From a virus, in the IMG/VR virus record IMGVR_UViG_3300008113_000328, positions 1-57,665 of that record: a stretch of 57,665 bases of DNA, one strand, 5' to 3'. A program made the position numbers and the translations under genes. Under the pieces are notes generated by a model that had not been told where the DNA came from, made no database searches, and worked only from the letters and a program-made list of their open reading frames with translations. This document shows, one piece after another, positions 10,172 through 44,275 of the stretch (within the stretch, counting starts at the first letter, position 1; every line of letters begins with the position of its first letter).

Positions 10172-11636
10172 TAGTCATTGCTTTTTTAAAGTGTGAAACT
10201 GTATAGTCTTTCTTCTTAGTAACCGCCTTGTATATGTCCTGCTCAATGCCGCCCTTGGTGAACACCCAATACACGTTGTTCGCAGGTCTGTCCTTCGTAG
10301 TCATCCTGTCCTTGCTCTGCCAATAACTTGTTGCACTGAAGTCAATGTTGTAGTACACCAAGAACTCAGCTTGCTTGAGCGAGATACCCTCCCTGCCCGA
10401 GACAATCTGAAGAGCGATGTTCTTATCGGTGTCTTCAAAGACACTCAGTTCAGTTGTCAATGCATCACCGAATACCTGCTTCAATGCGTTGAGTTCTTCC
10501 TTGAACTTGTAGAAGATTCCAATCTTCTTGCCCTTGAATTTCCTCTTAATGAACTCAGCCTTGGTGGTATCTATTACCATCGAGTTGCCGCTTTCAAACT
10601 TGACCGTGCCCGAGTATATCTGATGCAGCTTCATCATCAACTTAACAGGAGTGTCAGCCAATATCACCTCATCTCTTCCCTCAATCACCAACTCTTTCTT
10701 GAGACGATTAGCTAATGAATAAGTTGACTGCCTCATCTCAACCTCAAGTATCTCCTCAGTAGTTGTGGTTACAAACCCTGCCTGAGCCTGAGTGTAGCTA
10801 ATGGTATATGGCTTCATCACCTCAAGTATATCCTCGCTACCCTTAGAGTAATCCTTAATGACCAATCCGTTGATTCTTTTCTCTCGAACCTTAACGTACT
10901 TGTCACAGAACCTGTAGAAGTTTTGGAACTCAGCGAATGGATTACCCGGTATGCCGTACACCTGATGGTACATCTGAGAATACGACTCAGGCGTTGGTGT
11001 CCCCGACAGAAGGATGACCATTGGCTTGTGCTTTCTGATTAGGTCTTTTACCATTAGCGCACGCTGACTTGGCTTAGGGAATGCGCCTATGCTATGCGCC
11101 TCATCACAGATAATCAAGTCCCATTTAATGCTTGAGTCAATCGTATGCAGACTCTCGTAGTTGATGATGTGCAAGTTGTAGGTTGGACTCAGCAAGTTAT
11201 AGTCCCGCTCAATAGATTCTATTGCCTTCTTCTTTGTTATGAACAGGACGTTGTTAGCATTCATCTTCTGAGAGATGCCAAGGCTTGTTAGTGTCTTGCC
11301 CGTGCGCACCTCCATCGCAAGATAAAGAAACCTATACTTTGAAAGTATGACAGAACCCTTGAGAATGATTTCTTTTTGATAATCCCTTAGCATTAACTTA
11401 CTCTCCCTTTCTACATCCTGCTCGTGCAGTTTCTTATAGTACTCACAACTGCGAAGTATTCGGTCGATAGTTTCCCTGTCTGTCTTGTGCTTGGGAACCT
11501 CAACTATTTTTACCTGCTTGCCCCTTCCTTCTTTTACCTGCTTGGTTGCTAACACTACTTGTTTCATAAGTTCGCACTCTTTCCACATATACAGGTTGCT
11601 TGTACCTGATACTCGTTCAATGATATCCTCTTTCAT
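10164..11636 (-). CDS. SF2 (DEAD/SNF2-type) DNA helicase
   Basis: A 490-residue helicase. The first RecA domain has motif I (MEVRTGKT, near residue 110), motif II DEAH (near 178) and motif III SGTPTP (near 212). The second domain ends with the motif V/VI region VSGREGISLKQA...SYWQSKDRMTT. The order is that of compact phage SNF2/UvsW-like ATPases that remodel forks or recombination intermediates. It lies between the VRR-NUC nuclease and the primase-helicase. Motif I has Arg-Thr before GKT instead of the more usual Gly-Ser or Gly-Thr, as in several SNF2-like phage enzymes. Confidence 0.9.
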   Translation of the reverse strand: MKEDIIERVSGTSNLYMWKECELMKQVVLATKQVKEGRGKQVKIVEVPKHKTDRETIDRILRSCEYYKKLHEQDVERESKLMLRDYQKEIILKGSVILSKYRFLYLAMEVRTGKTLTSLGISQKMNANNVLFITKKKAIESIERDYNLLSPTYNLHIINYESLHTIDSSIKWDLIICDEAHSIGAFPKPSQRALMVKDLIRKHKPMVILLSGTPTPESYSQMYHQVYGIPGNPFAEFQNFYRFCDKYVKVREKRINGLVIKDYSKGSEDILEVMKPYTISYTQAQAGFVTTTTEEILEVEMRQSTYSLANRLKKELVIEGRDEVILADTPVKLMMKLHQIYSGTVKFESGNSMVIDTTKAEFIKRKFKGKKIGIFYKFKEELNALKQVFGDALTTELSVFEDTDKNIALQIVSGREGISLKQAEFLVYYNIDFSATSYWQSKDRMTTKDRPANNVYWVFTKGGIEQDIYKAVTKKKDYTVSHFKKAMTND

Positions 11637-14994: not shown

Positions 14995-15010
14995 GTGTCT
15001 TTAAAGACAC
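14995..15010 (-). repeat. Sense-strand hairpin, fully palindromic variant GTGTCTTTAAAGACAC
   Basis: A variant of the recurrent hairpin in which one base change makes it fully palindromic. It lies between the tRNA-like gene and the SSB-leader pseudoknot, where it could end or bound the tRNA precursor. Confidence 0.7.
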
Positions 15011-15014
15011 TTGT

Positions 15015-15106
15015 AGTCAGGACAGGACTCGAACCTGTAAAAAGGTAGGCTATGTACACTTGCCGTTTGAAGAACACTTGCAATTACCCATTTCTGCCAC
15101 CTGACT
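15015..15106 (-). tRNA. Putative class II tRNA (Leu-like), imperfect anticodon arm
   Basis: On the minus strand a 92-nt cloverleaf-like sequence has a perfect 7-bp acceptor (AGTCAGG/CCTGACT), TG at positions 8-9, a D arm with GCA/TGC and a GGG-containing loop, and a perfect T arm ACAGG-TTCGAGT-CCTGT. The length implies a long variable region, as in Leu, Ser or Tyr tRNAs. The anticodon stem is weak; the best reading is a loop TTCAAAC with anticodon CAA (Leu), whose stem needs a bulge. No CCA is encoded. It may be degenerate, or a tRNA-like element, rather than a working tRNA. Confidence 0.6.
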
Positions 15107-17859: not shown

Positions 17860-17910
17860 CCCGTTTCATCCTTTCGGAATCATCAGCTGAGGCACACACC
17901 TCAGTACGGG
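17860..17910 (-). ncRNA. Type III hammerhead ribozyme 1
   Basis: On the minus strand: stem III CCCGU/ACGGG, cleavage triplet GUA, stem I CUGAGG-(UGUGUG)-CCUCAG, core CUGAUGA, stem II UUCC-GAAA-GGAU, core GAAA. Predicted cleavage is between 17905 and 17904. Position 10.1/11.1 is U-U instead of the usual G-C, which may slow cleavage. It lies between the amidotransferase gene and the 134-residue gene, 23 bases before the latter's ATG. Confidence 0.9.
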
Positions 17911-17933
17911 GGAGTGTCTTTGAAGACACCCCC
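17910..17933 (-). repeat. Recurrent sense hairpin before hammerhead 1
   Basis: The 16-base GTGTCTTCAAAGACAC core (17914-17929) is extended by a G-U and three G-C pairs to about 11 bp. Its outermost C (17910) is also the first base of ribozyme stem III. It starts 5 bases after the amidotransferase stop codon. Confidence 0.85.
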
Positions 17934-17938
17934 TGTGA

Positions 17939-19000
17939 TTAGCTGTAGGTTATAATCTCTGACTGAGAGAACCATCCATTACAACCAAGGCAGTGGTAGT
18001 GGTTGAACCCATCGAACTCCAAGTCGTGGTAGCAGTCTATACAGATTGGCTTCTTGGACTCATCAGCAAAGTCAAAGTCAAACTCAGTAGTCTCGTGCTC
18101 GTAGTCATACTTGCTGTCGAATAGTTCATAGTTCTTGGCAGGGGTTGGCTTCTTCCAATGTTGCTCATAGCTTTTGTGCAACTTGGCTCCGCCCTCTATG
18201 TCCTTGCCGTTGAAGTATATCCAACAGGTGAGCACACGCTTCTTCATCTGAATCTGAATCTGCTTGCGCACATACCAACGTGGGTGACCCTCGAGTCTGT
18301 CCAACTCTTCAAGCGTCTCTGAGTTTACCTTGAACACATCCACGTCCACGTTGTACCCAATACCCTTCTTCTCAATTAGGTACGGCAGTCCGCTAACAAC
18401 GAGCGGATACCTGTCCTTGGTTTGTCCTGCGCCAAGGTATCCTGCTGAGCGCAGGTAGTGGTAGTAGTTTGAGTTGCCCTTCTTGAGCGTGCCGTACACC
18501 GCGACCAAGTGTTCCTCAAGCACGTTGTCCTTAGAGAACCATATGCCATCGCGCTGTGTCCACAGGTGCTTGTTGTAAATCTGATAGGTGCGGTTGCGTG
18601 TGTTGATGGTAACGAAACGGCAGGGGTGCTTCTCGAGTTCTGCCTTCCACGTGTGACGAGGTATCTCGCCAAGCGATATAGCCAACGCCTTGGTGTCTGA
18701 TATCTGCGCATTGCCTAGCCCGTAGATAGTTCCGTTCATCATAAGCCACTCCTTTGAGTTAGCACCACACTCAAATGGATGAGTGTTCTCCCTGTTAATT
18801 GCACCGATGGTAGCGTATCGGAAGTGAGCAATGAACGGACGCTTGGTATCTAGCTGTCTGTATTCCTTGGACTCGTGATAGGTAACCTCAAAGGTGTCGA
18901 GCCAAATGATGCCGAGTCCGTGAGGGTTGATACGCGCTGATGATTTGGCGACACTTACAGGCAGTCGCATACCCTTTTGTTTGATGATGATTACACACAT
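17939..19000 (-). CDS. Class II glutamine amidotransferase fused to gamma-glutamylcyclotransferase-like domain and zinc ribbon
   Basis: A 353-residue protein; start at 19000 so that Cys2 becomes N-terminal after Met removal, the class II (Ntn) glutaminase nucleophile (MCVIIIKQKG). Further glutaminase landmarks: HFRYATIG (59-66), NTHPFE (72-77), MMNGTI (87-92) and SDTKALA (101-107), as in EgtC/YafJ-type enzymes. Residues 165-290 form a GGCT/AIG2-like domain: VAVYGTLKKGN, then LEELDRLEGHP containing the candidate catalytic Glu. The C-terminus has CxxC (320/323) and CxxC (337/340), a zinc ribbon. The N-terminal domain would release ammonia from glutamine; the second acts on gamma-glutamyl amides. 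An upstream in-frame ATG at 19090 overlaps the promoter and is rejected. An amidoligase-like enzyme is encoded at 23604-24494. Confidence 0.88.
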   Translation of the reverse strand: MCVIIIKQKGMRLPVSVAKSSARINPHGLGIIWLDTFEVTYHESKEYRQLDTKRPFIAHFRYATIGAINRENTHPFECGANSKEWLMMNGTIYGLGNAQISDTKALAISLGEIPRHTWKAELEKHPCRFVTINTRNRTYQIYNKHLWTQRDGIWFSKDNVLEEHLVAVYGTLKKGNSNYYHYLRSAGYLGAGQTKDRYPLVVSGLPYLIEKKGIGYNVDVDVFKVNSETLEELDRLEGHPRWYVRKQIQIQMKKRVLTCWIYFNGKDIEGGAKLHKSYEQHWKKPTPAKNYELFDSKYDYEHETTEFDFDFADESKKPICIDCYHDLEFDGFNHYHCLGCNGWFSQSEIITYS

Positions 19001-19059
19001 AGTGATTAGATTTATGGGCATCGTACTAAACGAAGAACCCTGATTGAACTGATTTTGCA

Positions 19060-19090
19060 CAAAGGTACGACAATCTTTAGACAATGTCAA
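19060..19090 (-). promoter_or_regulatory. Promoter A, with inverted repeat in the spacer
   Basis: On the minus strand TTG, exactly 20 bases, then TACCTTTG: a Bacteroidota-type promoter. The spacer has GACAAT and ATTGTC half-sites in inverted orientation, shared with the promoters at 21270 and 22809, suggesting a common operator. It drives the amidotransferase fusion gene. Confidence 0.8.
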
Positions 19091-19099
19091 GTAAAATCT

Positions 19100-19261
19100 T
19101 TATGACGAACTCCGTGCTATTGATAGCAGGTCAGCCCTATCTTGCAGTTCCTTCTTTAGTTTGAGTAGCATCGGCATTGTTTCCTCGTAGGTTATCTTGC
19201 CATCGTCAAACTGCTTTGATAGATTTCTCATATCGTCAATCATATCTTCCATTGTCCTCAT
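19100..19261 (-). CDS. Small helical protein
   Basis: A 53-residue coiled-coil protein starting MRTMEDMIDDMRNLSKQF, with heptad-like charge pattern. The open frame extends further upstream, but that part overlaps the preceding gene; the ATG at 19261 lies 7 bases after its TAG and is preferred. It is the last gene of the operon that begins at 21300. Function unknown. Confidence 0.6.
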   Translation of the reverse strand: MRTMEDMIDDMRNLSKQFDDGKITYEETMPMLLKLKKELQDRADLLSIARSSS

Positions 19262-19268
19262 CGCCTGC

Positions 19269-19517
19269 CTAATGTGTTGAGGTAGACACCCATTCCTTGG
19301 GGCTGACTTTCTCCTCCTTTGTTTCTCTGTAGCTGAGGTAGTCTGTGATGTAGTCATCAATTGCTTCGGTCTGACTGCCATAGTCACGCTCCCAAATCTT
19401 TCGCTTGATAGACAGGCCATCATTCTCCTCAGTGATATACACGCTGAATATCTCGCATTTGTTTCTTGAGATGGGGTCTACATATTCTTCGACCCTAAAG
19501 ATAAGTTCTGTTGTCAT
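19269..19517 (-). CDS. Hypothetical protein
   Basis: An 82-residue acidic protein, beta strands (ELIFRVEEYVD, CEIFSVYITEEN) then a C-terminal helix. No known motif. Leader AATTAAATCAAAAATTCAT precedes the ATG. Part of a run of small genes with short spacers. Confidence 0.6.
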   Translation of the reverse strand: MTTELIFRVEEYVDPISRNKCEIFSVYITEENDGLSIKRKIWERDYGSQTEAIDDYITDYLSYRETKEEKVSPKEWVSTSTH

Positions 19518-19534
19518 ATGAATTTTTGATTTAA

Positions 19535-19825
19535 TTAGTCAGGAAATTTCTCTTCGTCATTGTCATCCAAGTACATCTCCCACCCCGATGGCTCGTCAAA
19601 GAACAGGCGTAGCTGATGCATCTCTGTGTCAATGTCCTCGGCATCGTAGAAGTGTGAGGTCTCTGCCCAATCGAAGAACTCAGCACGCTCACCCCTCTCC
19701 ATTGCGTGGAAGAGGTGGCGAGCCTGTGCCTTTTGTCCGTTGGCAATACTCTCGATGATGTACTCGAAGTACTCTTCTGCGGAATCAAATCCGTAGTCTT
19801 GAATTAGTTTCTGTAGTGCTCCCAT
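19535..19825 (-). CDS. Hypothetical acidic protein
   Basis: A 96-residue, strongly acidic helical protein (pattern YGFDSAEEYFEYIIES, C-terminus DDNDEEKFPD). Such acidic small phage proteins sometimes act as DNA mimics or inhibitors, but nothing here proves it. Two bases separate its start from the stop of the upstream gene. Confidence 0.6.
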   Translation of the reverse strand: MGALQKLIQDYGFDSAEEYFEYIIESIANGQKAQARHLFHAMERGERAEFFDWAETSHFYDAEDIDTEMHQLRLFFDEPSGWEMYLDDNDEEKFPD

Positions 19826-19827
19826 AG

Positions 19828-20208
19828 TTATCCAAATATAGTTTCGTTAAAGAATACTTGTTGAAGAATCACGTCAGCCGTAACGGCATCATCATTCTCG
19901 TTGATGGCATCCATCAGGTGACGAATGTCTGTGTTCTGTACTCGCTCGTGTACATCCTGCATCGTAATGGTTCGGGTGTACTCGCCCTCGTATCCAATGT
20001 CAACCAAGGTCAGGCTGTTGCCGTCTTTGAGGATTTGGATTAGCGTATCCTCGTGACAGGGTGACGTTAGTTTCTTAGACGCATCAACGTAGTCTTTGCG
20101 CTTGTAAGTTAGGTCGAGGTCATATCCACACTCTATGTATGCAAGTCCGTTGCACAGAGCGGTGTGGAATAGTTCCTCTGATTCTTGTGGGGTCAGTGTT
20201 ACTTTCAT
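19828..20208 (-). CDS. Hypothetical protein
   Basis: A 126-residue acidic protein starting MKVTLTPQESEELFHTAL, mixed alpha/beta, without recognised motif. It begins 5 bases after the stop of the gene at 20214 and belongs to the run released downstream of hammerhead 2. Confidence 0.6.
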   Translation of the reverse strand: MKVTLTPQESEELFHTALCNGLAYIECGYDLDLTYKRKDYVDASKKLTSPCHEDTLIQILKDGNSLTLVDIGYEGEYTRTITMQDVHERVQNTDIRHLMDAINENDDAVTADVILQQVFFNETIFG

Positions 20209-20213
20209 CGTGA

Positions 20214-20621
20214 TTAGTTTTTGGGTTTATAATTTCCTTCAGCGAGGTGGTCAATCTCATTGTTCACATCCTCGATTGTCCTGTCGATTGCATCGGTCAG
20301 CAGTTCGTATGCCTCGAGTTCACTGCACTCGTACTTGTCCATCACATCGCTCACGTGCCATAGGCTTTCAGCGTGGTAGCCGTTCCTTCTCAGTGCCTGT
20401 TTTATTTCCTTGTTGGTGTATAGGAAGCCCACGTCAATGCCGATTGGGTTGCCTCTCTCGAGTGCCTCATTCAACTGCTCCTGCGTTTCGATGAGTGACT
20501 CTGAGTCATCATCGTGCAGTTCATAGATTGACAGTGCGCCTGAACTTAGTAGTTCCTTTGCCGCGTAGGTTACGATGCACCACACGTAGCCATCGTCTGT
20601 TACTTTGATTTTGTGTGACAT
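20214..20621 (-). CDS. Hypothetical protein downstream of hammerhead 2
   Basis: A 135-residue protein beginning MSHKIKVTDDGYVWCIVTY; beta-rich start, then helices with many acidic residues. The family is not recognised. The start lies 19 bases after the 3' end of hammerhead ribozyme 2, so its mRNA 5' end is probably made by self-cleavage. Confidence 0.65.
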   Translation of the reverse strand: MSHKIKVTDDGYVWCIVTYAAKELLSSGALSIYELHDDDSESLIETQEQLNEALERGNPIGIDVGFLYTNKEIKQALRRNGYHAESLWHVSDVMDKYECSELEAYELLTDAIDRTIEDVNNEIDHLAEGNYKPKN

Positions 20622-20640
20622 AAAATTGATTGTGTTAGTT

Positions 20641-20691
20641 TCCGTTTCATCCTTTTGGAATCATCAGTCGGGACACTCATCCCGATACGGA
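20641..20691 (-). ncRNA. Type III hammerhead ribozyme 2
   Basis: Minus strand: stem III UCCGU/ACGGA, triplet GUA, stem I UCGGGA-(UGAGUG)-UCCCGA, core CUGAUGA, stem II UUCC-AAAA-GGAU, core GAAA. Cleavage is predicted between 20686 and 20685. Stem III and stem I differ from copy 1 by compensatory changes. Like copy 1 it has U-U at 10.1/11.1. Confidence 0.9.
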
Positions 20692-20716
20692 GCAGTGTCT
20701 TTGAAGACACCGCCCC
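20689..20716 (-). repeat. Recurrent sense hairpin before hammerhead 2
   Basis: Core 20695-20710. G-C, C-G and G-U pairs extend the stem to about 13 bp. The last two C residues (20690-20689) also belong to ribozyme stem III, so the full hairpin and the full ribozyme exclude each other. Confidence 0.85.
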
Positions 20717-20727
20717 TAACACACACA

Positions 20728-21234
20728 TTAAACAACTAACACCATATCTTCCCTGAGGTTGAAGTACAAGGGCGTATCTATCCCGTCAAACAGCACGTTG
20801 TATCTGAACAGGGAGCCGTCCTCGAACTCAATACGATTAACCTTGCGCCCACTCTTCGCCTCAATCAACAGCCTTGCACCCTCGAGCACAGGGGTTGCTT
20901 CCCACTTTAGCTTTCTCTTCTCATTGTACAGGCGGTAAAGCGTGTAGCTATCCACTTTGTTGAACGACTCAGCCATCGGGCACAACCACTCGAGCGCATC
21001 CATTATCATACTCGGATAAAGACTATCCTTGTCCCAATCCTTTATGTACTGCTTGCATCCTTCCAATTCATACCACATATACTTATCGAACAGGGTTGGC
21101 CTGTCTTGATAGTAGACACTCACCCAATGCCCGTCATCTTCATTGCGGTAGATACTGACCACACCACCATCTTCCGTCAGGATATTAACCTCATCGTTGT
21201 TGAGGATTTCAACTGCGTAATTCATTTTAACCAT
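20728..21234 (-). CDS. Hypothetical protein
   Basis: A 168-residue protein, promoter-proximal in its operon. Start at 21234 (leader AACAATTATCACA); an ATG three codons later is also possible. The sequence is beta-rich (VEILNNDEVNILTEDGGVVS) with many aromatic residues, and a C-terminal beta segment. No known domain recognised. A hairpin and hammerhead 2 follow its stop codon. Confidence 0.7.
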   Translation of the reverse strand: MVKMNYAVEILNNDEVNILTEDGGVVSIYRNEDDGHWVSVYYQDRPTLFDKYMWYELEGCKQYIKDWDKDSLYPSMIMDALEWLCPMAESFNKVDSYTLYRLYNEKRKLKWEATPVLEGARLLIEAKSGRKVNRIEFEDGSLFRYNVLFDGIDTPLYFNLREDMVLVV

Positions 21235-21269
21235 TGTGATAATTGTTAGAAGTTTGAACTAATTTTGCG

Positions 21270-21300
21270 CAAAGATACGACAACGAATGAACGATGTCAA
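21270..21300 (-). promoter_or_regulatory. Promoter B, same design as promoter A
   Basis: Minus-strand TTG, 20 bases, TATCTTTG, with GACA and TGTC half-sites flanking the spacer. It drives the 168-residue gene. A DnaA-box-like TTATCAACA sits just upstream at 21307-21315 (plus strand). Confidence 0.8.
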
Positions 21301-21309
21301 ATAAAGTTA

Positions 21310-21471
21310 TCAACAGGGGTACTCCCCGTACACCTTGAAGTAACACTCTTCGCAGTCAGCGTCAGTGCCTTCGGTGTTGTCGATACACTCTTGCAGTAGT
21401 ATCTCTTTGTCAAATTCTGATGCCGCCCATATGCCCACGGCAAATACAACGGCAAGGATTACTTTCTTCAT
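21310..21471 (-). CDS. 53-residue exported small protein
   Basis: The start overlaps the upstream stop as ATGA. The N-terminus MKKVILAVVFAVGIWAASEF is a typical signal peptide or anchor: two lysines, then a hydrophobic core. The mature part is acidic and holds four cysteines (QECID, DCEECYF, YPC), compatible with disulfides outside the cytoplasm. It is too small for most gene finders. Role unknown; possibly envelope modification or superinfection exclusion. Confidence 0.65.
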   Translation of the reverse strand: MKKVILAVVFAVGIWAASEFDKEILLQECIDNTEGTDADCEECYFKVYGEYPC

Positions 21472-21656
21472 TGCTGTGCTGTTTTAGTTGGTGATTGAAC
21501 TGCCTTTGATGTGAGGTAGATTAGCTTGTCAACGAGGTCGAACTCAGCCTGTGTCACAGGCTCAGGTAGGAACAGCGCGTCCAATACGACTTTGTCCATA
21601 TGAACGAAGTCAATCTTTGTCTCATCGAATGAGAACGTGATGGTTACTTGTGTCAT
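21468..21656 (-). CDS. Small hypothetical protein
   Basis: A 62-residue protein starting MTQVTITFSFDETKIDF. The ATG at 21656 overlaps the stop of the lipoprotein gene as TAATG; the frame extends further upstream but that part is antisense-free overlap with the lipoprotein reading frame and is rejected. Beta hairpin then helices; no motif. Confidence 0.6.
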   Translation of the reverse strand: MTQVTITFSFDETKIDFVHMDKVVLDALFLPEPVTQAEFDLVDKLIYLTSKAVQSPTKTAQQ

Positions 21657-21838
21657 TAGCTTGGGAAGTTTAGGGTTCTGTAGTTCTGTTTGCAACCCTT
21701 GAAGTTGGGGTTGTGGTCGTGACGGAAGTTTCCGTGGCTCCGACTCTTTGATTGCTTTGTTCTGTAGGCTTGGTGCTGTGAACCACAGCTTTGGAACAGG
21801 ACAGCGATTGCTGTCAGGATTGTGATTGCTTTTCTCAT
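21656..21838 (-). CDS. 60-residue putative lipoprotein
   Basis: N-terminus MRKAITILTAIAVLFQSCGS is a lipoprotein signal peptide: basic start, hydrophobic core and a lipobox-like LFQSC with the cysteine at residue 18. The mature ~42 residues are basic and His/Asn/Lys-rich. Bacteroidota phages rarely encode lipoproteins; superinfection exclusion is a possible role (inference). It is coupled on both sides, with ATGA at its start and TAATG at its end. Confidence 0.65.
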   Translation of the reverse strand: MRKAITILTAIAVLFQSCGSQHQAYRTKQSKSRSHGNFRHDHNPNFKGCKQNYRTLNFPS

Positions 21839-22032
21839 TTGCGTGGAAGTATTTCAAAGTAAGATGGTTTGTAAAACTTGTGATTCACCCAAGGGTAGAC
21901 AGCCTCTGTCCATTCTCTGTCGTTGATACGCTCGTGGATAGACGGGTAGCTTAACACCTTGGTCTTGATGAGGGTCACAAGCATTGGTGCGCCCTCGTAA
22001 CGGAACCTGCCGTAGTAAGTTGGTGTGCTCAT
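21835..22032 (-). CDS. Small hypothetical protein
   Basis: A 65-residue basic protein rich in Tyr and Pro (MSTPTYYGRFRYEGAP). No domain recognised. It overlaps its downstream neighbour by 4 bases and its upstream neighbour by 1, within the run of exported-protein genes. Confidence 0.6.
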   Translation of the reverse strand: MSTPTYYGRFRYEGAPMLVTLIKTKVLSYPSIHERINDREWTEAVYPWVNHKFYKPSYFEILPRK

Positions 22033-22346
22033 TATTGTGGGGTTTGGATTACTTGATAGTTCTCGATTAGAAAGTCGTTGTACTCGAACTTGCCTGTCTT
22101 GATGAACTCAAGAATCTCAGGCTCGTAGGCGTACTCAATGACACACTCCTCGAAGTACAGGGTGTACATCGCCAAGCCCGTGTCATCGTCCTGACCCTCG
22201 TAGACAATCGTGCCCTCGTCCTGTAACTCTAAGAACAGGACACGTGCCGCGTTGTCGTTCATCTTTTCGATACTCACAAAGCCTTCGCTCTGTGCCTTTG
22301 ATTGCAGTGCAATGAACATCATTGCCGAAATGAATAGTGCTTTCAT
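22032..22346 (-). CDS. Exported protein downstream of hammerhead 3
   Basis: A 104-residue protein with a clear Sec signal peptide (MKALFISAMMFIALQSKAQS, cleavage probably after KA or AQ). The mature part is acidic and beta-rich, with one cysteine. Its leader (AATCTAATCACAA) follows hammerhead 3 by 24 bases. It is the first gene released by that ribozyme and is followed by three more small genes plus the lipoprotein. Confidence 0.7.
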   Translation of the reverse strand: MKALFISAMMFIALQSKAQSEGFVSIEKMNDNAARVLFLELQDEGTIVYEGQDDDTGLAMYTLYFEECVIEYAYEPEILEFIKTGKFEYNDFLIENYQVIQTPQ

Positions 22347-22370
22347 TTGTGATTAGATTAAATTAGATTT

Positions 22371-22419
22371 CCGTTTCGTTCTTTTGAACTCATCAGGTAG
22401 GACACTCATCCTACTACGG
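22371..22419 (-). ncRNA. Type III hammerhead ribozyme 3
   Basis: Minus strand: stem III CCGU/ACGG, triplet GUA, stem I GUAGGA-(UGAGUG)-UCCUAC, core CUGAUGA, stem II GUUC-AAAA-GAAC with normal G10.1-C11.1, core GAAA. Cleavage is predicted between 22415 and 22414. Stem II differs from copy 5 by a compensatory pair. Confidence 0.93.
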
Positions 22420-22439
22420 GAGTGTCTTTGAAGACACTC
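22420..22439 (-). repeat. Recurrent sense hairpin before hammerhead 3
   Basis: GAGTGTCTTCAAAGACACTC, a 9-bp stem directly abutting ribozyme stem III. It lies 12 bases after the stop of the 46-residue gene. Confidence 0.88.
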
Positions 22440-22451
22440 ACGCTTTGCTCA

Positions 22452-22592
22452 TCAGCTTGCTTGAAGTACCGACTCAATTACCTTCATCATCCCATATCCC
22501 TCAGCCTTCTCGTTGGAGTTACCCAAGTCGATTAGTTCTTGTGCCTGCTCTTCTAGTTCCGCAAGTAGCTTGCTTAATTTTTGATTCTTCAT
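22452..22592 (-). CDS. 46-residue helical protein
   Basis: A short gene starting at 22592 after the leader ACACTAATCACT. The product begins MKNQKLSKLLAELEEQAQ and is an amphipathic, leucine-rich helix or coiled coil. It lies 5 bases after the upstream gene and directly before the hairpin-ribozyme unit. Function unknown. Confidence 0.6.
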   Translation of the reverse strand: MKNQKLSKLLAELEEQAQELIDLGNSNEKAEGYGMMKVIESVLQAS

Positions 22593-22597
22593 AGTGA

Positions 22598-22777
22598 TTA
22601 GTGTTTAGGGTTTGACTCGAATGTGACTGCGACAATAGACAGCAGTGAAAGAAGACCGCACAGGTATCCTAACCATACCGCTACGCCAATGTTTAAGGTG
22701 TGACCGATTGAAATAACAACCATTGAAAGGGCTGTCATTACTGCGCAAACAAGCGCGATGTGTTTTGTGTGTGACAT
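22598..22777 (-). CDS. Small two-helix membrane protein
   Basis: A 59-residue protein with two hydrophobic helices (IALVCAVMTALSMVVISIG and GVAVWLGYLCGLLSLLSIVAV). I place the start at 22777, 32 bases past promoter C; the frame extends upstream through the promoter and is not used. It is the promoter-proximal gene of the operon. Holin-like in shape, but its location argues for a host-membrane role. Confidence 0.65.
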   Translation of the reverse strand: MSHTKHIALVCAVMTALSMVVISIGHTLNIGVAVWLGYLCGLLSLLSIVAVTFESNPKH

Positions 22778-22808
22778 AGATTTAAGTATTAAATGAACTA
22801 ATTTTCGA

Positions 22809-22839
22809 CAAAGGTACGACATTGAATAGACAATGTCAA
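22809..22839 (-). promoter_or_regulatory. Promoter C, with perfect 7-bp inverted repeat
   Basis: Minus-strand TTG, 20 bases, TACCTTTG. The spacer contains GACATTG-N6-CAATGTC, the most perfect version of the inverted repeat shared with promoters A and B, and a likely operator. Confidence 0.82.
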
Positions 22840-22893
22840 ATAAAGTTATGAACACCCTGTTGTTTGTGGCTTCAGGGTGCTCATAGCTGTGCA

Positions 22894-23151
22894 CTACCAC
22901 TGCACAGGTCGTGGTGCTGTTGCGTGGTACTTTGAGCCACTCGCCTCAGGGTTCAGGCTCATATCGTGCTGTGCATTCTCAAGCCACTGCGCAAACTCAA
23001 GCATAAGCATTGCAAAGGCAGTGTCGTTGTGGCACTCAAGACGCACGACAAGTACGTCTGAGTCGTTAATAATTTGGTGTCCGTCAACCTTGCGCTCGTT
23101 GATGAAAGCGTGAAACATAGGTGACCAATCGAGGAAATAAGTACGTGTCAT
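22894..23151 (-). CDS. Hypothetical protein downstream of hammerhead 4
   Basis: An 85-residue protein (start MTRTYFLDWSPMFHAFINE), mixed alpha/beta, no recognised domain. Its ATG is 28 bases after hammerhead 4. It is the last gene of the operon that begins near 25206. Confidence 0.62.
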   Translation of the reverse strand: MTRTYFLDWSPMFHAFINERKVDGHQIINDSDVLVVRLECHNDTAFAMLMLEFAQWLENAQHDMSLNPEASGSKYHATAPRPVQW

Positions 23152-23179
23152 TTGTGTGACTGAATTAAGTTATGTGTGT

Positions 23180-23233
23180 TCCTGTTTCGTCCTTCGTGGA
23201 CTCATCAGCACAGGCAACTACCTGTGGACAGGA
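23180..23233 (-). ncRNA. Type III hammerhead ribozyme 4
   Basis: Minus strand: stem III UCCUGU/ACAGGA (6 bp), triplet GUC, stem I CACAGG-(UAGUUG)-CCUGUG, core CUGAUGA, stem II GUCC-ACGAA-GGAC, core GAAA. Cleavage is predicted between 23227 and 23226. It is the most divergent copy: all three stems and both loops differ, yet every pair is kept. Confidence 0.93.
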
Positions 23234-23260
23234 GGGCAGGTGTCTTTGAAGACACCGCCC
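23234..23260 (-). repeat. Recurrent sense hairpin before hammerhead 4
   Basis: Core 23240-23255, extended by one G-C pair and, after a small internal mismatch, three more G-C pairs. It lies 8 bases after the stop of the 74-residue gene and directly abuts ribozyme stem III. Confidence 0.85.
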
Positions 23261-23268
23261 CTGTGCGC

Positions 23269-23493
23269 TCAATTGAGCGTCATCAAAAAGTACTTTGAGC
23301 GACCGCGCCACTCACCATACTGCTTGTCAATTTCGTAGGCGAATACGCTCAGTACAAGTGTGCGCTCAGCCCCGTACATAGTCACGTACTGCGACTGCTC
23401 TTCGCCCTCGTTAGTCCAAATTTCTACGCCCTCACCAAGGCGTACTACCTGTTCGTCTGTGATTTCAGTCAGATTGAATTTTTCAAAGTTCAT
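23269..23493 (-). CDS. Hypothetical protein between hammerheads 4 and 5
   Basis: A 74-residue acidic protein (start MNFEKFNLTEITDEQVVRLG). Its gene is flanked on both sides by hairpin-ribozyme units, so self-cleavage would release it as a monocistronic mRNA of about 330 nt. No recognised domain. Confidence 0.65.
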   Translation of the reverse strand: MNFEKFNLTEITDEQVVRLGEGVEIWTNEGEEQSQYVTMYGAERTLVLSVFAYEIDKQYGEWRGRSKYFLMTLN

Positions 23494-23516
23494 AACGTGT
23501 GTGTTTTTAAGGTTTG

Positions 23517-23565
23517 CCGTTTCGTCCTTTTGGACTCATCAGACAGGGCACTCACCCTGTTACGG
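23517..23565 (-). ncRNA. Type III hammerhead ribozyme 5
   Basis: Minus strand: stem III CCGU/ACGG, triplet GUA, stem I ACAGGG-(UGAGUG)-CCCUGU, core CUGAUGA, stem II GUCC-AAAA-GGAC, core GAAA. Cleavage is predicted between 23561 and 23560. It lies 23 bases before the ATG of the 74-residue gene. Confidence 0.94.
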
Positions 23566-23567
23566 GA

Positions 23568-23595
23568 GGGGCAGTGTCCTTGAAGACACCACCCC
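23568..23595 (-). repeat. Recurrent sense hairpin before hammerhead 5
   Basis: Variant core GTGTCTTCAAGGACAC (23574-23589), extended by two G-U and four G-C pairs to an 11-bp stem. It begins 8 bases after the amidoligase stop codon. Confidence 0.85.
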
Positions 23596-23603
23596 TGCTT
23601 CCC

Positions 23604-24494
23604 TTAGTACCTCGGGAGGTACTGACGGATGCTCTCAGACACCGCGCCCGTGTCGATGAACTTTTGAAAGTCAACCGCAAGGTTCAGCACCTTCATCGCC
23701 TTTGTAGTGTCCCCGTTGTACATTAGAACTACAAGCGGTGAAATGTGCTTCAGGAACGTCTTTGTAGTAGTGTTCGGGGCTGTGATTGCCACGTTCACCA
23801 CCTCGTACATTAACTCGTAGCGTCTCATCAACTGCTTCACGCTCTCGAATCGGCTCACCACACGAAACTCGAGCACGTTGCCCTTGTTTAAGGCCACTTG
23901 ATATTTGTGGTGATAGCGCAAGTGCTGTCCAATGTCCATAGCTGTATGCATACGCAGGTTGTGGTTGCAAAAGTCATTTTTGAGGCGGTTGCGGAACAGC
24001 GCGTAAATAATGCCCGAATACTTGCGCACGGCTGTGTTGATTTCATCGCCTGTCATCCCTTCGACACCGATAGTCATATGACCACCGCAACGGCTGTCAG
24101 ACGGGCTGTATTGGTCTTCGATAATGTAACGGGCTTTGTGCATCATATCGTACACCTTTGTGCGCCACTGACCCTGTGGGAGCAAAGGCAGGATGTGGCT
24201 CACAGCCTCGTAGCCGCACGATGCATCACGCTCGAAGCCGCAAAACAACTCGTACTCACGCACCGAATTGCGGTGCAATTGGTTCTTTTCAACCTCAATG
24301 CCGATAGTGAAACGGCTTGCAATAGCCCCGTTGATGAGGGCAAAATTGTCGCGCTGTTGACGTGGCTTGAGTCCTGCAATGTCTATGCGGTGACGTGTCA
24401 CGCTCAATTTGTTTGGTGCAGGCTTGTAGTGGTATGAGTGAACTACGCCACGAGCGTGCTCGCCTGTCAATCTGTATTGGATACCTGTGTTCAT
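23604..24494 (-). CDS. Amidoligase-like (COOH-NH2 ligase, glutamine-synthetase-fold) enzyme
   Basis: A 296-residue protein with the landmarks of the Amidoligase_2 group: the metal-binding strand FTIGIEVEK (62-70), FERDASCGYEAVSHILPL (87-104, where SCGYE matches the D-x-S-x-x-x-E pattern), CGGHMTIGVEG (136-146, the G-G-H-x-H/T motif) and LEFRVVSRF near 225. Such enzymes use ATP to form amide or peptide bonds. Related families are often encoded near class II amidotransferases and AIG2/GGCT-like proteins, and such a fusion is present at 17939-19000. The acceptor is unknown. It sits between a hairpin and hammerhead 5. Confidence 0.8.
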   Translation of the reverse strand: MNTGIQYRLTGEHARGVVHSYHYKPAPNKLSVTRHRIDIAGLKPRQQRDNFALINGAIASRFTIGIEVEKNQLHRNSVREYELFCGFERDASCGYEAVSHILPLLPQGQWRTKVYDMMHKARYIIEDQYSPSDSRCGGHMTIGVEGMTGDEINTAVRKYSGIIYALFRNRLKNDFCNHNLRMHTAMDIGQHLRYHHKYQVALNKGNVLEFRVVSRFESVKQLMRRYELMYEVVNVAITAPNTTTKTFLKHISPLVVLMYNGDTTKAMKVLNLAVDFQKFIDTGAVSESIRQYLPRY

Positions 24495-24513: not shown

Positions 24514-24539
24514 GGGCAGTGTCTTTGAAGACACCGCCC
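24514..24539 (-). repeat. Recurrent sense hairpin without a ribozyme
   Basis: Core 24519-24534, extended by a G-U and four further pairs to 12 bp. It lies in the short gap between the 217-residue gene and the amidoligase gene. Unlike other intergenic copies in this region, no hammerhead follows. Confidence 0.85.
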
Positions 24540-24552
24540 TGTTTATGATTGT

Positions 24553-25206
24553 TTATTGGTTAACTGCGTATTTCACTTTGGTGGTGAACAGGCGAATAGC
24601 CTCTAACACTGCGTCCTTGTCAGCAGTGGTGTGAATAGCCCCGTCTGTATCGATTCGCACAGCTATGTTAGCCCCTTCGGGGTTCTTGAAAGTGAATGAA
24701 AATACCACCTGTGGACGCACCTCAATTGCAGGCTCTTCGCCTTCGCCTTCGCCCTCTTCACCGCCTTCGCCTGTTCCACTGCTCTCTTGTCCCTGTTCCA
24801 AAGCCTTAGCGAACTTATTGAGAGCCTCAATACTGCGAACAGGCTTCTCGCCTGTGCTCTCAGCCTCATCGCACTTTGCGTTGAACGTCTCAATCACCTC
24901 AGCAGGTAGTTCACCTGCCTTGACTAGCTTGCAGAAAAACGACTTCTTGTATCCAAACACCTTTTCGCCAAGGGCTTCCTTAGTGAACGTCACGCCCTCC
25001 TCTTCGCACAGGGCTTTACCCTCTGCGCTGTTCACCCAAGCCCAAGCCTGTGCCGACAGCTTTGCCATACTCAGAGTGTTCTCAAACGTCTTCTTCTCAG
25101 CCTTAGCCATAGTGCGCTGTAAGGCTGTCACCTGTTGCAGGTTCATACCTGCCTTAACCTGTGGATTGCTGAGGAACGATGCCTCAATTGATAGTAAATT
25201 GCTCAT
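24553..25206 (-). CDS. Hypothetical protein with Glu/Gly-rich linker
   Basis: A 217-residue protein: an N-terminal helical domain (~120 residues, with FGYKKSFFCKLVKAGEL resembling a helix-turn-helix/ParB-like segment), a linker of Gly and Glu repeats (about 142-158), and a C-terminal beta domain (VVFSFTFKNPEGANIAVRID). It is the first gene of its operon and directly follows the 25267 promoter. A DNA-binding regulator is possible but unproven. Confidence 0.68.
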   Translation of the reverse strand: MSNLLSIEASFLSNPQVKAGMNLQQVTALQRTMAKAEKKTFENTLSMAKLSAQAWAWVNSAEGKALCEEEGVTFTKEALGEKVFGYKKSFFCKLVKAGELPAEVIETFNAKCDEAESTGEKPVRSIEALNKFAKALEQGQESSGTGEGGEEGEGEGEEPAIEVRPQVVFSFTFKNPEGANIAVRIDTDGAIHTTADKDAVLEAIRLFTTKVKYAVNQ

Positions 25207-34023: not shown

Positions 34024-35415
34024 ATGGCAAAAATTAGTACATATCCTAACGTATCAACTCCTACTCTTTCCGATATGCTTATCGGTACGGAGGTAACTGA
34101 TAACAATGCTACAAAGAACTTTCAGATATCTGATATCCTCGGTTTGATTGGTTCGTTGGGATTGTATGTACCGTATACGGGGGCCACGTCAGATGTAGAC
34201 TTAGGCACGTATCTCATTTTTGCAGGAGGTGGTACTTTTTTTGGTCCTGTGTATCTTGATGATGCGTTATTTGATGGGACAGGAAGCTCGGGAAATGTAG
34301 GTCAAATATTGTCTGCTACCGCTACAGGCACTCAATGGATTGACCCTTCTTCTTTTATTAATCTTCAGGTTACTCTTGACGGTGGTAATACGGCTGATGA
34401 GGACATTATCTTGACAGGAGTGTCTAATAAATTTGAGCAGACGGGTGCTAACTCATTTATCCGTCAAACAGGAATAAGTTCTTTTATTCAACAAACAGGA
34501 GGAACCGCATTTATTTCGCAGTCAGGTGCTAATGCATTTATTAATCAGTCAGGAAATAATGCAAGTATTCTTCAAACGGGAACGGATAGTCTTATCCAAC
34601 AGCAAGGTATTGACTCAGTATTTAGGCAGATAGGTGCTAATGCAAGTATTCAGCAATCAGGTGCTAATTCTTATATCGACCAACAGGGTGCTAATGCATT
34701 TATAACACAGTCAGGTCTTAATTCAATTATTGAGCAAACAGGAAATAATGCTTTTATTACGCAGTCGGGAGCCAATTCATTTATTGAGCAAACAGGGGCT
34801 AATGCAAGCATTCAACAAACAGGGGCCAATGCATATATCTCACAGGCAGGGACCACAGGTTATATTCAGCCTGCTCAGATTTTAGACTCAACATCGTCTT
34901 TAGGGGTAGTAGATGAAGTGCTTGTGTCTCTTGGCCCGGGACTTGGAGTTCAATGGAAAGATAAGAATCAGATAGGGTCTTTTTATGATATCGCAAATCA
35001 AACTCCTGTTGCGGGTGTAGCTGTTCCTATGAGATTTGGAACCAATGATATTACAGGTTTTGGTGTTTCAGTTACTCCTGACATATTTACAAATAGAACT
35101 CAGATTGAAGTAACTACTACAGGGTATTATAACATACAGTTTTCTGCACAGCTTCGTAATGGAGCGGGTGCTGCTGAAGTAGATATATGGTTTCGTAAAA
35201 ACGGTACTGACATTGCTAATTCAAATACCAATGTATCAATGCAGTCAAATAGTTTTCAAGTAGCTTCTTGGAACTATCTTATAAAATTAGACCCCGGTGA
35301 TGTTTTTCAGATTATGTGGACCCAAGATAATTCAGCACTTATATCCGCAGGTCCAATTTCAGCTTTACATCCTGCAACGCCATCAACTATCCTTACTGTA
35401 AATAGAGTTCGTTAA
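34024..35415 (+). CDS. Tail fibre or adhesin with sixteen nonapeptide repeats and a C-terminal trimeric-type domain
   Basis: A 463-residue protein. Residues 1-138 are an N-terminal attachment region including YTGATSDVDLG. Residues 139-282 are sixteen 9-residue repeats Q-[TSQ]-G-x-[ND]-[SA]-[FY]-I-x, likely forming beta-solenoid turns; the Q-x-G-x-N pattern recalls curlin repeats. Residues about 315-463 form a beta-rich domain (VAVPMRFGTNDI, WFRKNGTDI, DVFQIMWTQDN) like the C1q/TNF-type trimeric heads of many phage fibres. It is a good candidate host-recognition protein. Confidence 0.78.
   Translation: MAKISTYPNVSTPTLSDMLIGTEVTDNNATKNFQISDILGLIGSLGLYVPYTGATSDVDLGTYLIFAGGGTFFGPVYLDDALFDGTGSSGNVGQILSATATGTQWIDPSSFINLQVTLDGGNTADEDIILTGVSNKFEQTGANSFIRQTGISSFIQQTGGTAFISQSGANAFINQSGNNASILQTGTDSLIQQQGIDSVFRQIGANASIQQSGANSYIDQQGANAFITQSGLNSIIEQTGNNAFITQSGANSFIEQTGANASIQQTGANAYISQAGTTGYIQPAQILDSTSSLGVVDEVLVSLGPGLGVQWKDKNQIGSFYDIANQTPVAGVAVPMRFGTNDITGFGVSVTPDIFTNRTQIEVTTTGYYNIQFSAQLRNGAGAAEVDIWFRKNGTDIANSNTNVSMQSNSFQVASWNYLIKLDPGDVFQIMWTQDNSALISAGPISALHPATPSTILTVNRVR
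34438..34869 (+). repeat. Tandem 27-bp repeats (x16) in the fibre gene
   Basis: Sixteen degenerate 27-base units encoding the nonapeptide repeat. The DNA is diverged at third positions while the Q-x-G frame is kept, so the array is old and under protein-level selection. Confidence 0.9.
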
Positions 35416-35417
35416 TC

Positions 35418-35645
35418 GTGGATATTAGAAAGATATCGGTTGGTCCTGACTACAAAGGAGGGGCAATGCATTACATTGTTGGGCAAAAAGTGCTTGGCAA
35501 TAGTAATGAGATACGCCATATCAAGTACAATCAACAGCGTGAGTCAATACAGATTTACATCATAAATGAAAAACAAGAGGTAGTTCTTTGGAAAGAGTTC
35601 ACCTCAACCATTCCAATTTCAATCGAATTTAATATAGATTTTTGA
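35418..35645 (+). CDS. Hypothetical protein
   Basis: A 75-residue beta-rich protein with GTG start (MDIRKISVGPDYKGGAMHYI). No motif known. It lies 2 bases after the fibre gene and overlaps the next gene by 4 bases. Confidence 0.62.
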   Translation: MDIRKISVGPDYKGGAMHYIVGQKVLGNSNEIRHIKYNQQRESIQIYIINEKQEVVLWKEFTSTIPISIEFNIDF

Positions 35646-36208
35646 TGAAGTCACCATTCTACTTTATGGCAAAGCCATTAAAGGGGAAGCGTTACGACAA
35701 CACAAAGGACATAGGTGGAGTAGAGTTTATAGTGAGTACCTCAGAGGAGGACCACAAGTTCTCCAACAGGTATGCTGAGGTTGTTGAGACCCCCTTGGGA
35801 TATTCGGGACCAATTGAACCCGGAGATATCTTGATAGTGCATCACAATGCATTCAAGTTTTACAATGATATAAAAGGCAACCGCAAAAGCGGTCGTAGCT
35901 TTTTTAGAGAAGATATCTTTCTTATAGACTCTGAGCAATTCTTTATGTATAAGAAAGGCGATACTTGGTATGCCTATGATAGATATTGTTTTGTAAAGCC
36001 TATACCCGCGACTGAGTCGTATATCAAGAAGCCTTTTTCTGAGGAGCCGCTGATGGGAATAATGAAATATCCCAACGCTTATCTTTGTAGTCAAGGAGTA
36101 AACGCAGGAGACACTGTATGTTTTGCTCCTGAAACTGAATATGAATTTATCGTAGATGATGAGAAACTATACCGAATCTACGACCACCAAATAACAATTA
36201 AGCTATGA
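35642..36208 (+). CDS. Hypothetical beta-barrel protein, possibly co-chaperonin (Cpn10)-like
   Basis: A 188-residue protein built of two similar beta halves. PGDILIVHHNAFKFYNDIKG, then KKGDTWYAYDRYCFVKPI and later NAGDTVCFAPETEYEFIVDD resemble the V-x-x-G-D-x-V strand of GroES-type barrels, twice. With a true GroES encoded at 28312, a tandem Cpn10-like fold is plausible but not proven. A mobile loop is not obvious. It could alternatively be a virion component. Confidence 0.55.
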   Translation: MMKSPFYFMAKPLKGKRYDNTKDIGGVEFIVSTSEEDHKFSNRYAEVVETPLGYSGPIEPGDILIVHHNAFKFYNDIKGNRKSGRSFFREDIFLIDSEQFFMYKKGDTWYAYDRYCFVKPIPATESYIKKPFSEEPLMGIMKYPNAYLCSQGVNAGDTVCFAPETEYEFIVDDEKLYRIYDHQITIKL

Positions 36209-36675
36209 ACTTATTATCACTCGATAACATTATTAGAGACCCAAAGGCATATGTTGAAGACATTTTTAAATATGACTTTCAAGATATATTTGATGGAGAG
36301 CGTACATTTAAAAATATACAACCAAGAGATGACGATGAGTTTTCTCGGACCGTATCAATAATTTTTCCTAATTACACTGTGAAGTGGAACTTTATACGTA
36401 AGTCTCCTTTAAATCAAGAAGAGCCAAACTTTATTCATTCAGACGAGATGATGGGTGACTTTACTGTTATCCTTTATCTCAACGAGACTCATCCTGAGAA
36501 TGACGGCACAACAATATACGATGAGAATAAAAAACCATTGTGTACTGTGTACTCAAAATTCAATCGAATGATTGCGTTCAACTCAGACGCTCCTCACTCT
36601 CGAAACATTTATGAGAACTTTGGAAGTGGCAATGAGGCTCGTTTGATTCAAGTAATCTTTTTAGAGGAAAAGTAA
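36205..36675 (+). CDS. 2-oxoglutarate/Fe(II)-dependent dioxygenase (prolyl-hydroxylase-like)
   Basis: A 156-residue enzyme of the double-stranded beta-helix fold. The metal ligands are in order: H-S-D in FIHSDEMMGDFTVILYLN (near 77-79), the distal His in SDAPHSRNIY (near 131), and the 2OG-binding Arg in NEARLIQVIF (near 146). Phage P4H-like enzymes may hydroxylate virion or host proteins; the substrate here is unknown. It overlaps the gene before it by 4 bases and precedes the terminase genes. Confidence 0.85.
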   Translation: MNLLSLDNIIRDPKAYVEDIFKYDFQDIFDGERTFKNIQPRDDDEFSRTVSIIFPNYTVKWNFIRKSPLNQEEPNFIHSDEMMGDFTVILYLNETHPENDGTTIYDENKKPLCTVYSKFNRMIAFNSDAPHSRNIYENFGSGNEARLIQVIFLEEK

Positions 36676-44243: not shown

Positions 44244-44275
44244 GGGAGAGTGTCTTCAAAGACACTCTCCTTTTT
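44244..44275 (+). terminator. Terminator after the major capsid gene, built on the recurrent hairpin
   Basis: The core GTGTCTTCAAAGACAC (44250-44265) is lengthened to a stem of about 13-14 bp (GGAGAG/CTCTCC) and followed by five T residues. Here the repeated hairpin is a full Rho-independent terminator, 13 bases past the stop. Confidence 0.93.

Follow-up and report, generated by a model that had tools for sequence, protein, structure and literature searches.

Five type III hammerhead ribozymes lie between genes on the minus strand of the IMG/VR virus record IMGVR_UViG_3300008113_000328, which was taken whole (57,665 bases, hereafter the window), and each is preceded by an RNA hairpin ending a few nucleotides (nt) before the predicted cut. 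Read from the sequence, the joint between the genes is a two-part hairpin–hammerhead unit, and each unit probably serves as a self-contained punctuation mark that forms an RNA 3′ end between co-transcribed phage genes. The units are, in the order of transcription:

23568–23595, minus strand: hairpin directly 5′ of hammerhead 5; 12 bp
23517–23565, minus strand: hammerhead 5, type III; predicted cut between 23561 and 23560; stem II GUCC/GGAC
23234–23261, minus strand: hairpin directly 5′ of hammerhead 4; one bulge
23180–23233, minus strand: hammerhead 4, type III; predicted cut between 23227 and 23226 (GUC); stem II GUCC/GGAC
22420–22439, minus strand: hairpin directly 5′ of hammerhead 3; 8 bp
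22371–22419, minus strand: hammerhead 3, type III; predicted cut between 22415 and 22414; stem II GUUC/GAAC
20689–20716, minus strand: hairpin 5′ of hammerhead 2; 12 bp, its 3′ arm overlapping the 5′ strand of stem III
20641–20691, minus strand: hammerhead 2, type III; predicted cut between 20686 and 20685; U-U mismatch at 10.1/11.1
17910–17933, minus strand: hairpin directly 5′ of hammerhead 1; 10 bp
17860–17910, minus strand: hammerhead 1, type III; predicted cut between 17905 and 17904; U-U mismatch at 10.1/11.1

The five motifs are, by their sequence, genuine type III hammerheads for which cleavage is predicted. The core CUGANGA ... GAAA with U16.1-A15.1 is present in all five, the cleavage site is UH with H other than G (GUA in four copies, GUC in one), and the pair at 10.1/11.1 is G-C in copies 3, 4 and 5, replaced by U-U in the first two copies. 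A strict type III descriptor, requiring core, UH cleavage site, perfect stem I, stem II and open stem III, returned exactly these five from the window and nothing from 120 dinucleotide shuffles of it. Minimum-energy folding recovered every hammerhead except that of copy 2, where the CC needed by stem III is taken up by the hairpin upstream. The initial annotation had located the five on the coding strand, which is here the minus strand, and was right in this, as in the open stem III with loop-closed stems I and II, in start codons 19–28 nt downstream of the window copies, and in the predicted 5′ ends at 17904, 20685, 22414, 23226 and 23560 (H17 being 17905, 20686, 22415, 23227 and 23561). The Rfam check that it proposed gave a divided answer: the five are the best RF00008 matches in the region (38.8, 37.2, 35.4, 29.5 and 23.8 bits), but all lie under the curated cut-off of 48.5 bits, at which the search of the region yields no match. 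Since the hammerheads of Pseudomonas phages PaP3 and PaP4 likewise give no RF00008 match at E 1, while a covariance model trained on the phage family of the window (70 training rows, i.e. 65 relatives and the five window copies) gives 64.1 bits to that of PaP3, the miss is a problem of sensitivity, and RF00008 is insensitive to phage hammerheads. The family model scores the window copies at 77.2, 76.7, 76.6, 74.9 and 66.3 bits and finds nothing else in the window.

The family was assembled as 80 related loci, collected by protein similarity alone with the gamma-glutamyl cyclotransferase (GGCT) protein encoded upstream of hammerhead 1 as bait. The strict descriptor matched 120 times in these loci, always on the gene strand and never on the opposite one, and a pattern of core letters only gave 118 matches, again all on the gene strand, 99 of which are complete by the strict descriptor. 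With the family model, 65 of 71 related whole records carry at least one hammerhead, one to four each, and no score over these records falls between 49.9 and 19.5 bits. In MW202828, the nearest relative in GenBank, the model finds nothing, and in Cellulophaga phages phi19:3 and phi18:3 it gives only weak partial matches (20.2 and 15.5 bits). Serial intergenic hammerheads had been called unusual: five per record is indeed the family maximum, but one other record also has five, and hammerheads around phage genes were published in 2011 (PMC3088659).

Structural selection on the stems, as had been claimed from the five copies, is borne out by strong covariation across 70 family members: 96.9% of cells are paired (70.9% after shuffling), the covariation score is 0.742 against 0.229 for shuffled alignments and 0.055–0.121 for slid structures, and 12 of 15 pairs show changes on both sides, in an alignment that was gathered by a pairing-requiring descriptor and so leans towards structure. 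Within the window, the statement that all three stems change with pairing kept is true of stem I; in copies 1 and 2, however, the first pair of stem II is the U-U mismatch, and stem III varies in one copy only. Across the 70 aligned copies the core is invariant except N7, as are, with a view to a possible tertiary contact of loops I and II, the U of loop I and the last A of loop II though unpaired, and C and A dominate at cleavage-site H in the relatives, UH itself being demanded by the descriptor.

The hairpins of the window share the core GUGUC-UUCAAA-GACAC, extended by longer GC-rich arms in four of five copies. A strong hairpin ending at most 8 nt from the cut, most commonly with a gap of 4–5 nt, accompanies 88.7% of 106 distinct family elements, as against 9.2% of 479 intergenic control sites taken at the same stop-codon distance in comparable gaps without a hammerhead. 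The sequence of the hairpin varies between lineages and its structure is retained. Some bases belong to both the hairpin and stem III in copy 2, and likewise wherever the hairpin extends to the last bases before the cut; there, we would guess, the hairpin might close fully only after cleavage and so make the cut irreversible.

Of 94 hairpins linked to a hammerhead, only one is followed by at least five U within 9 nt, and a reading of the hairpins as intrinsic terminators was set aside given the missing U tract in the other 93. It is for the same reason quite improbable that the hairpin is a partial terminator behind which the hammerhead only trims read-through RNA, although the same hairpin core followed by a U tract does resemble an intrinsic terminator near 44250 and in relatives. 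Two hairpins of the window stand apart from its hammerheads:

44244–44275, plus strand: like hairpin core with extended arms and U tract; intrinsic-terminator-like
24514–24539, minus strand: like hairpin without hammerhead or U tract, between genes 24553–25206 and 23604–24494

At the type of junction represented by the second, seven relatives carry a hammerhead behind a gene for a protein of about 220 amino acids (aa), mostly before the family of the 296-aa protein described below.

The hairpin core also belongs to a dispersed palindrome. Each phage of the family has its own version, with 7-bp arms, a 2-nt spacer and a centre that is mostly TT-YA-AA, in some 6–13 copies per genome; the arm is GTGTCTT in the window and GAGGGTT, GTCCGTT or GTCTCTT in relatives. 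Window sites are at 10429, 14995, 24519, 25400, 31007, 37145 and 44250, in addition to the five hammerhead hairpins. Some copies are intragenic at orthologous places (e.g. in a helicase gene), their sequence having changed in step, which is the pattern expected of sites of a fast-evolving binding protein, as far as sequence can tell. One might therefore take the palindrome for a DNA-binding site whose closeness to hammerheads is incidental. This is hardly credible: the stems are extended, with G-U pairs, at hammerhead sites only, and some hammerhead hairpins are unique in their locus. The first four positions of the stem extension are 84–88% paired at hammerhead sites, with 74 G-U against 10 A-C combinations, compared with 36–47% paired and 84 G-U against 109 A-C at palindrome copies elsewhere. 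Because G-U is common and A-C rare at hammerhead sites alone, it is the hairpin in the sense RNA that is kept there, and a pure DNA-palindrome reading was set aside. A palindrome copy (14995–15010) also directly follows a tRNA-like gene at 15013–15106 (minus strand), which received a four-base anticodon call (tcaa).

Hammerheads with hairpins occur outside the family as well. Among 48 phage contigs for which no protein or DNA relationship to the family was detected, a hairpin accompanies 26 of 61 type III hammerheads, against 1.4% of random windows (the intergenic control having been made for the family only); bacterial contigs, most of them from Patescibacteria, gave 99 type III hammerheads, 43 of them with a hairpin. 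Many Patescibacteria contigs have such hammerheads, often with a hairpin in front and a recurrent GTTCTTT motif within some 5–15 nt after them. Hammerhead 2 is nearly identical to that of PaP3 and PaP4 (Bruynoghevirus), which shares with it the type III fold, the U-U mismatch, nearly the same stem I and a hairpin ending 4 nt before the cut; the differences are that it is a single copy and precedes the first early gene in a leader, and that neither its hairpin nor the host is related to those of the window phage. PaP3 and the window phage, of unrelated lineages, thus have in common both a near-identical hammerhead and a GATase-like gene (17939–19000 in the window), the PaP3 protein at 35103–36299 being annotated as similar to glutamine-fructose-6-phosphate aminotransferase.

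The position of the units follows the genes upstream. In the family elements the cut lies a median of 41 nt after the upstream stop codon (interquartile range (IQR) 37–43; 34, 42, 37, 42 and 43 nt in window copies 1 to 5), and 94 of 111 elements have one of just four protein families upstream: the 296-aa protein in 51 genomes, the GATase/GGCT protein in 24, a family of about 190 aa in 12 and one of about 220 aa in 7. Genes downstream belong to many small families. Because the upstream families are conserved and the downstream ones varied, the element belongs to the 3′ end of conserved genes, and because its position is tied to the upstream stop codon, distance to the start codon is not the main clue. 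The initial annotation had regarded the hammerheads as mRNA joints placed close to gene starts; the role of a joint fits all data, but the hairpin partner had been missed and the stop codon is the main anchor. The early character that it ascribed to the region is putative, having been derived from gene content alone. The genes concerned in the window are:

23604–24494, minus strand: gene upstream of hammerhead 5; 296 aa; members of its family stand before a hammerhead in 51 related genomes
23269–23493, minus strand: gene between hammerheads 5 and 4; 74 aa
22452–22592, minus strand: small open reading frame (ORF) upstream of hammerhead 3; 46 aa; stop 37 nt before the cut
20728–21234, minus strand: gene upstream of hammerhead 2; 168 aa
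17939–19000, minus strand: gene upstream of hammerhead 1; 353 aa; class II GATase-like and GGCT

Searches of Pfam, PHROGs and PDB sequences gave no family name for the 296-aa protein. Its AlphaFold2 model matches glutamine synthetase-like ligases consistently, though weakly (E ~2e-3, TM ~0.3), so that, tentatively, this protein and GGCT would suit a gamma-glutamyl or amide-forming pathway.

That dozens of diverged genomes keep the hammerhead at a fixed place after the same genes, and that its stems covary, is not what would be expected of selfish or neutral ribozyme copies without a phage function. That explanation, which we regard as very poor, could draw on the near-identical copy in unrelated Pseudomonas phages and on the frequency of hammerheads in mobile DNA (PMC3088659).

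An explanation centred on the other side of the cut has to be weighed more carefully. The hammerhead may mainly serve the downstream gene, providing it with a defined 5′-OH end, two protective hairpins and a short A-rich leader, while the upstream hairpin merely isolates the ribozyme fold from the coding region. The ATG follows GAAA by a median of 26 nt (IQR 24–31, family elements), and the hammerheads of PaP3, PaP4 and Flavobacterium phages of the genus Elemovirus stand in the leader before the first gene. Such a function, however, would have no need for a hairpin ending a few nucleotides before the cut, and placement follows the upstream gene whereas downstream genes vary; we therefore consider it unlikely. 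Several observations nevertheless speak against 3′-end formation as the purpose of the unit. Spacing to the downstream ATG is just as tight as spacing to the stop codon, and fetching loci through the GGCT gene favours conserved upstream genes, the presence of GGCT being trivial for that reason and the association with the other three upstream families not trivial. By the test used, about 11% of elements in the family and about 57% outside it lack a strong hairpin. Elemovirus isolates have a single hammerhead, predicted at 19080–19141 in MT497017, and the gene that it precedes has no annotated neighbour close upstream on the same strand; in the isolate examined no hairpin was found at that hammerhead.

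The mismatch at 10.1/11.1 also depends on the gene upstream. Of the 24 elements that follow GGCT, 17 have U-U instead of the usual G-C, whereas the count is 6 of 51 for those after the 296-aa gene and 0 of 12 for those after the family of about 190 aa (GGCT versus 296-aa, Fisher p 6e-7, with rows that are not independent); several further relatives have A-A, in some cases immediately after GGCT. According to PMC3088659, no other mismatch at this position is tolerated as well as U-U, which is compatible with activity, and a PaP3 hammerhead with core variation is listed there as active. It is likely the near-identical U-U one, which the main text of that paper does not name. Slower, tuned cutting at the U-U sites is plausible from these sequences.

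We propose that 3′ ends are formed as follows. RNA polymerase would pass through the element, read-through being proposed because the hairpin has no U tract behind it. The nascent hairpin would form first, just after the upstream stop codon, and the type III hammerhead would fold next and cut its own RNA a few nucleotides past the hairpin. The upstream message would end in the hairpin and a 2′,3′-cyclic phosphate, a 3′ end that should resist 3′ exonucleases; the downstream message would begin with a 5′-OH, followed by stems I and II as two small hairpins and by an A-rich leader, 20–30 nt before the ATG. One long message would so be split into separate ones, which might be translated and decay separately, without transcription being stopped. 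Hammerhead cleavage yields 5′-OH and cyclic phosphate ends, and given this established chemistry and the almost interchangeable stem III strands of the copies, pairs of hammerheads might instead release cistrons that circularise, their ends being substrates for RtcB-type or ribozyme ligation. This is most improbable, as 34 of 61 hammerhead loci show only one (strict descriptor), and circular or spliced products were sought in other phage arrays and not detected (PMC3088659).

A wider claim is offered more tentatively: the hairpin with a type III hammerhead may be a general, termination-independent 3′-end element of phages and Patescibacteria, which splits operons into separately stable messages without stopping the polymerase and in which site-specific core mismatches, such as U-U behind GGCT, tune the extent of cutting.

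The host of the window phage is likely a member of the Bacteroidota, because of its terminase relatives and of Bacteroidota-type promoter-like sites 5′ of several minus-strand genes. The terminase is 82% identical to that of the uncultured podovirus MW202828, about 46% to those of Elemovirus and 31–43% to those of Cellulophaga, Maribacter and Tenacibaculum phages. Three promoter-like repeats lie upstream of the units holding hammerheads 1, 2 and 3:

19045–19105, 21255–21315 and 22794–22854, minus strand: three near-identical 61-nt repeats with a Bacteroidota-type promoter (TTGAC ... TAnCTTTG)
19060–19105 (5′ of the GGCT gene), 21270–21315 and 22809–22854, minus strand: promoter-like part of these repeats

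Elsewhere in the window, a coding array of 27-nt repeats (34444–34838) within ORF 34024–35415 specifies nine-residue units, e.g. GANAFINQS, and the product may be a repeat protein of fibre-like type.

The role of prokaryotic hammerheads has been described as an open question (PMC6155905). A fixed partner, the hairpin, and a fixed place, the stops of conserved genes, in a family with cultured relatives turn the idea that ribozymes make mRNA 3′ ends into a testable proposal; if true, a general 3′-end element would answer what many prokaryotic hammerheads are for, and laboratory constructs could make good use of it to split operons. Phage hammerheads, their occurrence several to a transcription unit and the idea of processing are already known (PMC3088659). 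Open-licence papers yielded no report of the partnership with a hairpin, the tie to upstream stops, the distribution across the family or the site-specific U-U, earlier notice elsewhere being possible; among such papers, the literature on hammerheads in connection with LUZ24, terminators or phage mRNA processing held nothing beyond PMC3088659.

Perreault et al. (2011) described hammerheads clustered around phage and prophage genes, in arrays that underwent cleavage in vitro, and already proposed that long phage RNA is processed into gene-length messages (PMC3088659). As in the window, several of their hammerheads flank genes of one transcription unit; whereas neither a terminator nor a hairpin preceding the cut is mentioned in their main text, the window presents a hairpin–hammerhead unit tied family-wide to upstream stops. 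HHphage of haloviruses HF1 and HF2 is a hammerhead variant 13 nt before an early gene, with a mapped 5′ end within 3 nt of the cut (PMC3088659), but it has a variant core, belongs to an archaeal virus and has no reported hairpin. Theta ribozymes of gut phages, mainly those of Bacteroidota, are likewise small phage ribozymes proposed to form RNA 3′ ends, whereas their fold is like that of hepatitis delta virus and they lie at tRNA 3′ trailers, not between protein genes (PMC10879173). With intrinsic terminators, finally, the element of the window shares a GC-rich hairpin right after the stop codon and a hairpin-capped 3′ end; it differs from them in having no U tract, and its end would come from self-cleavage as transcription continues.

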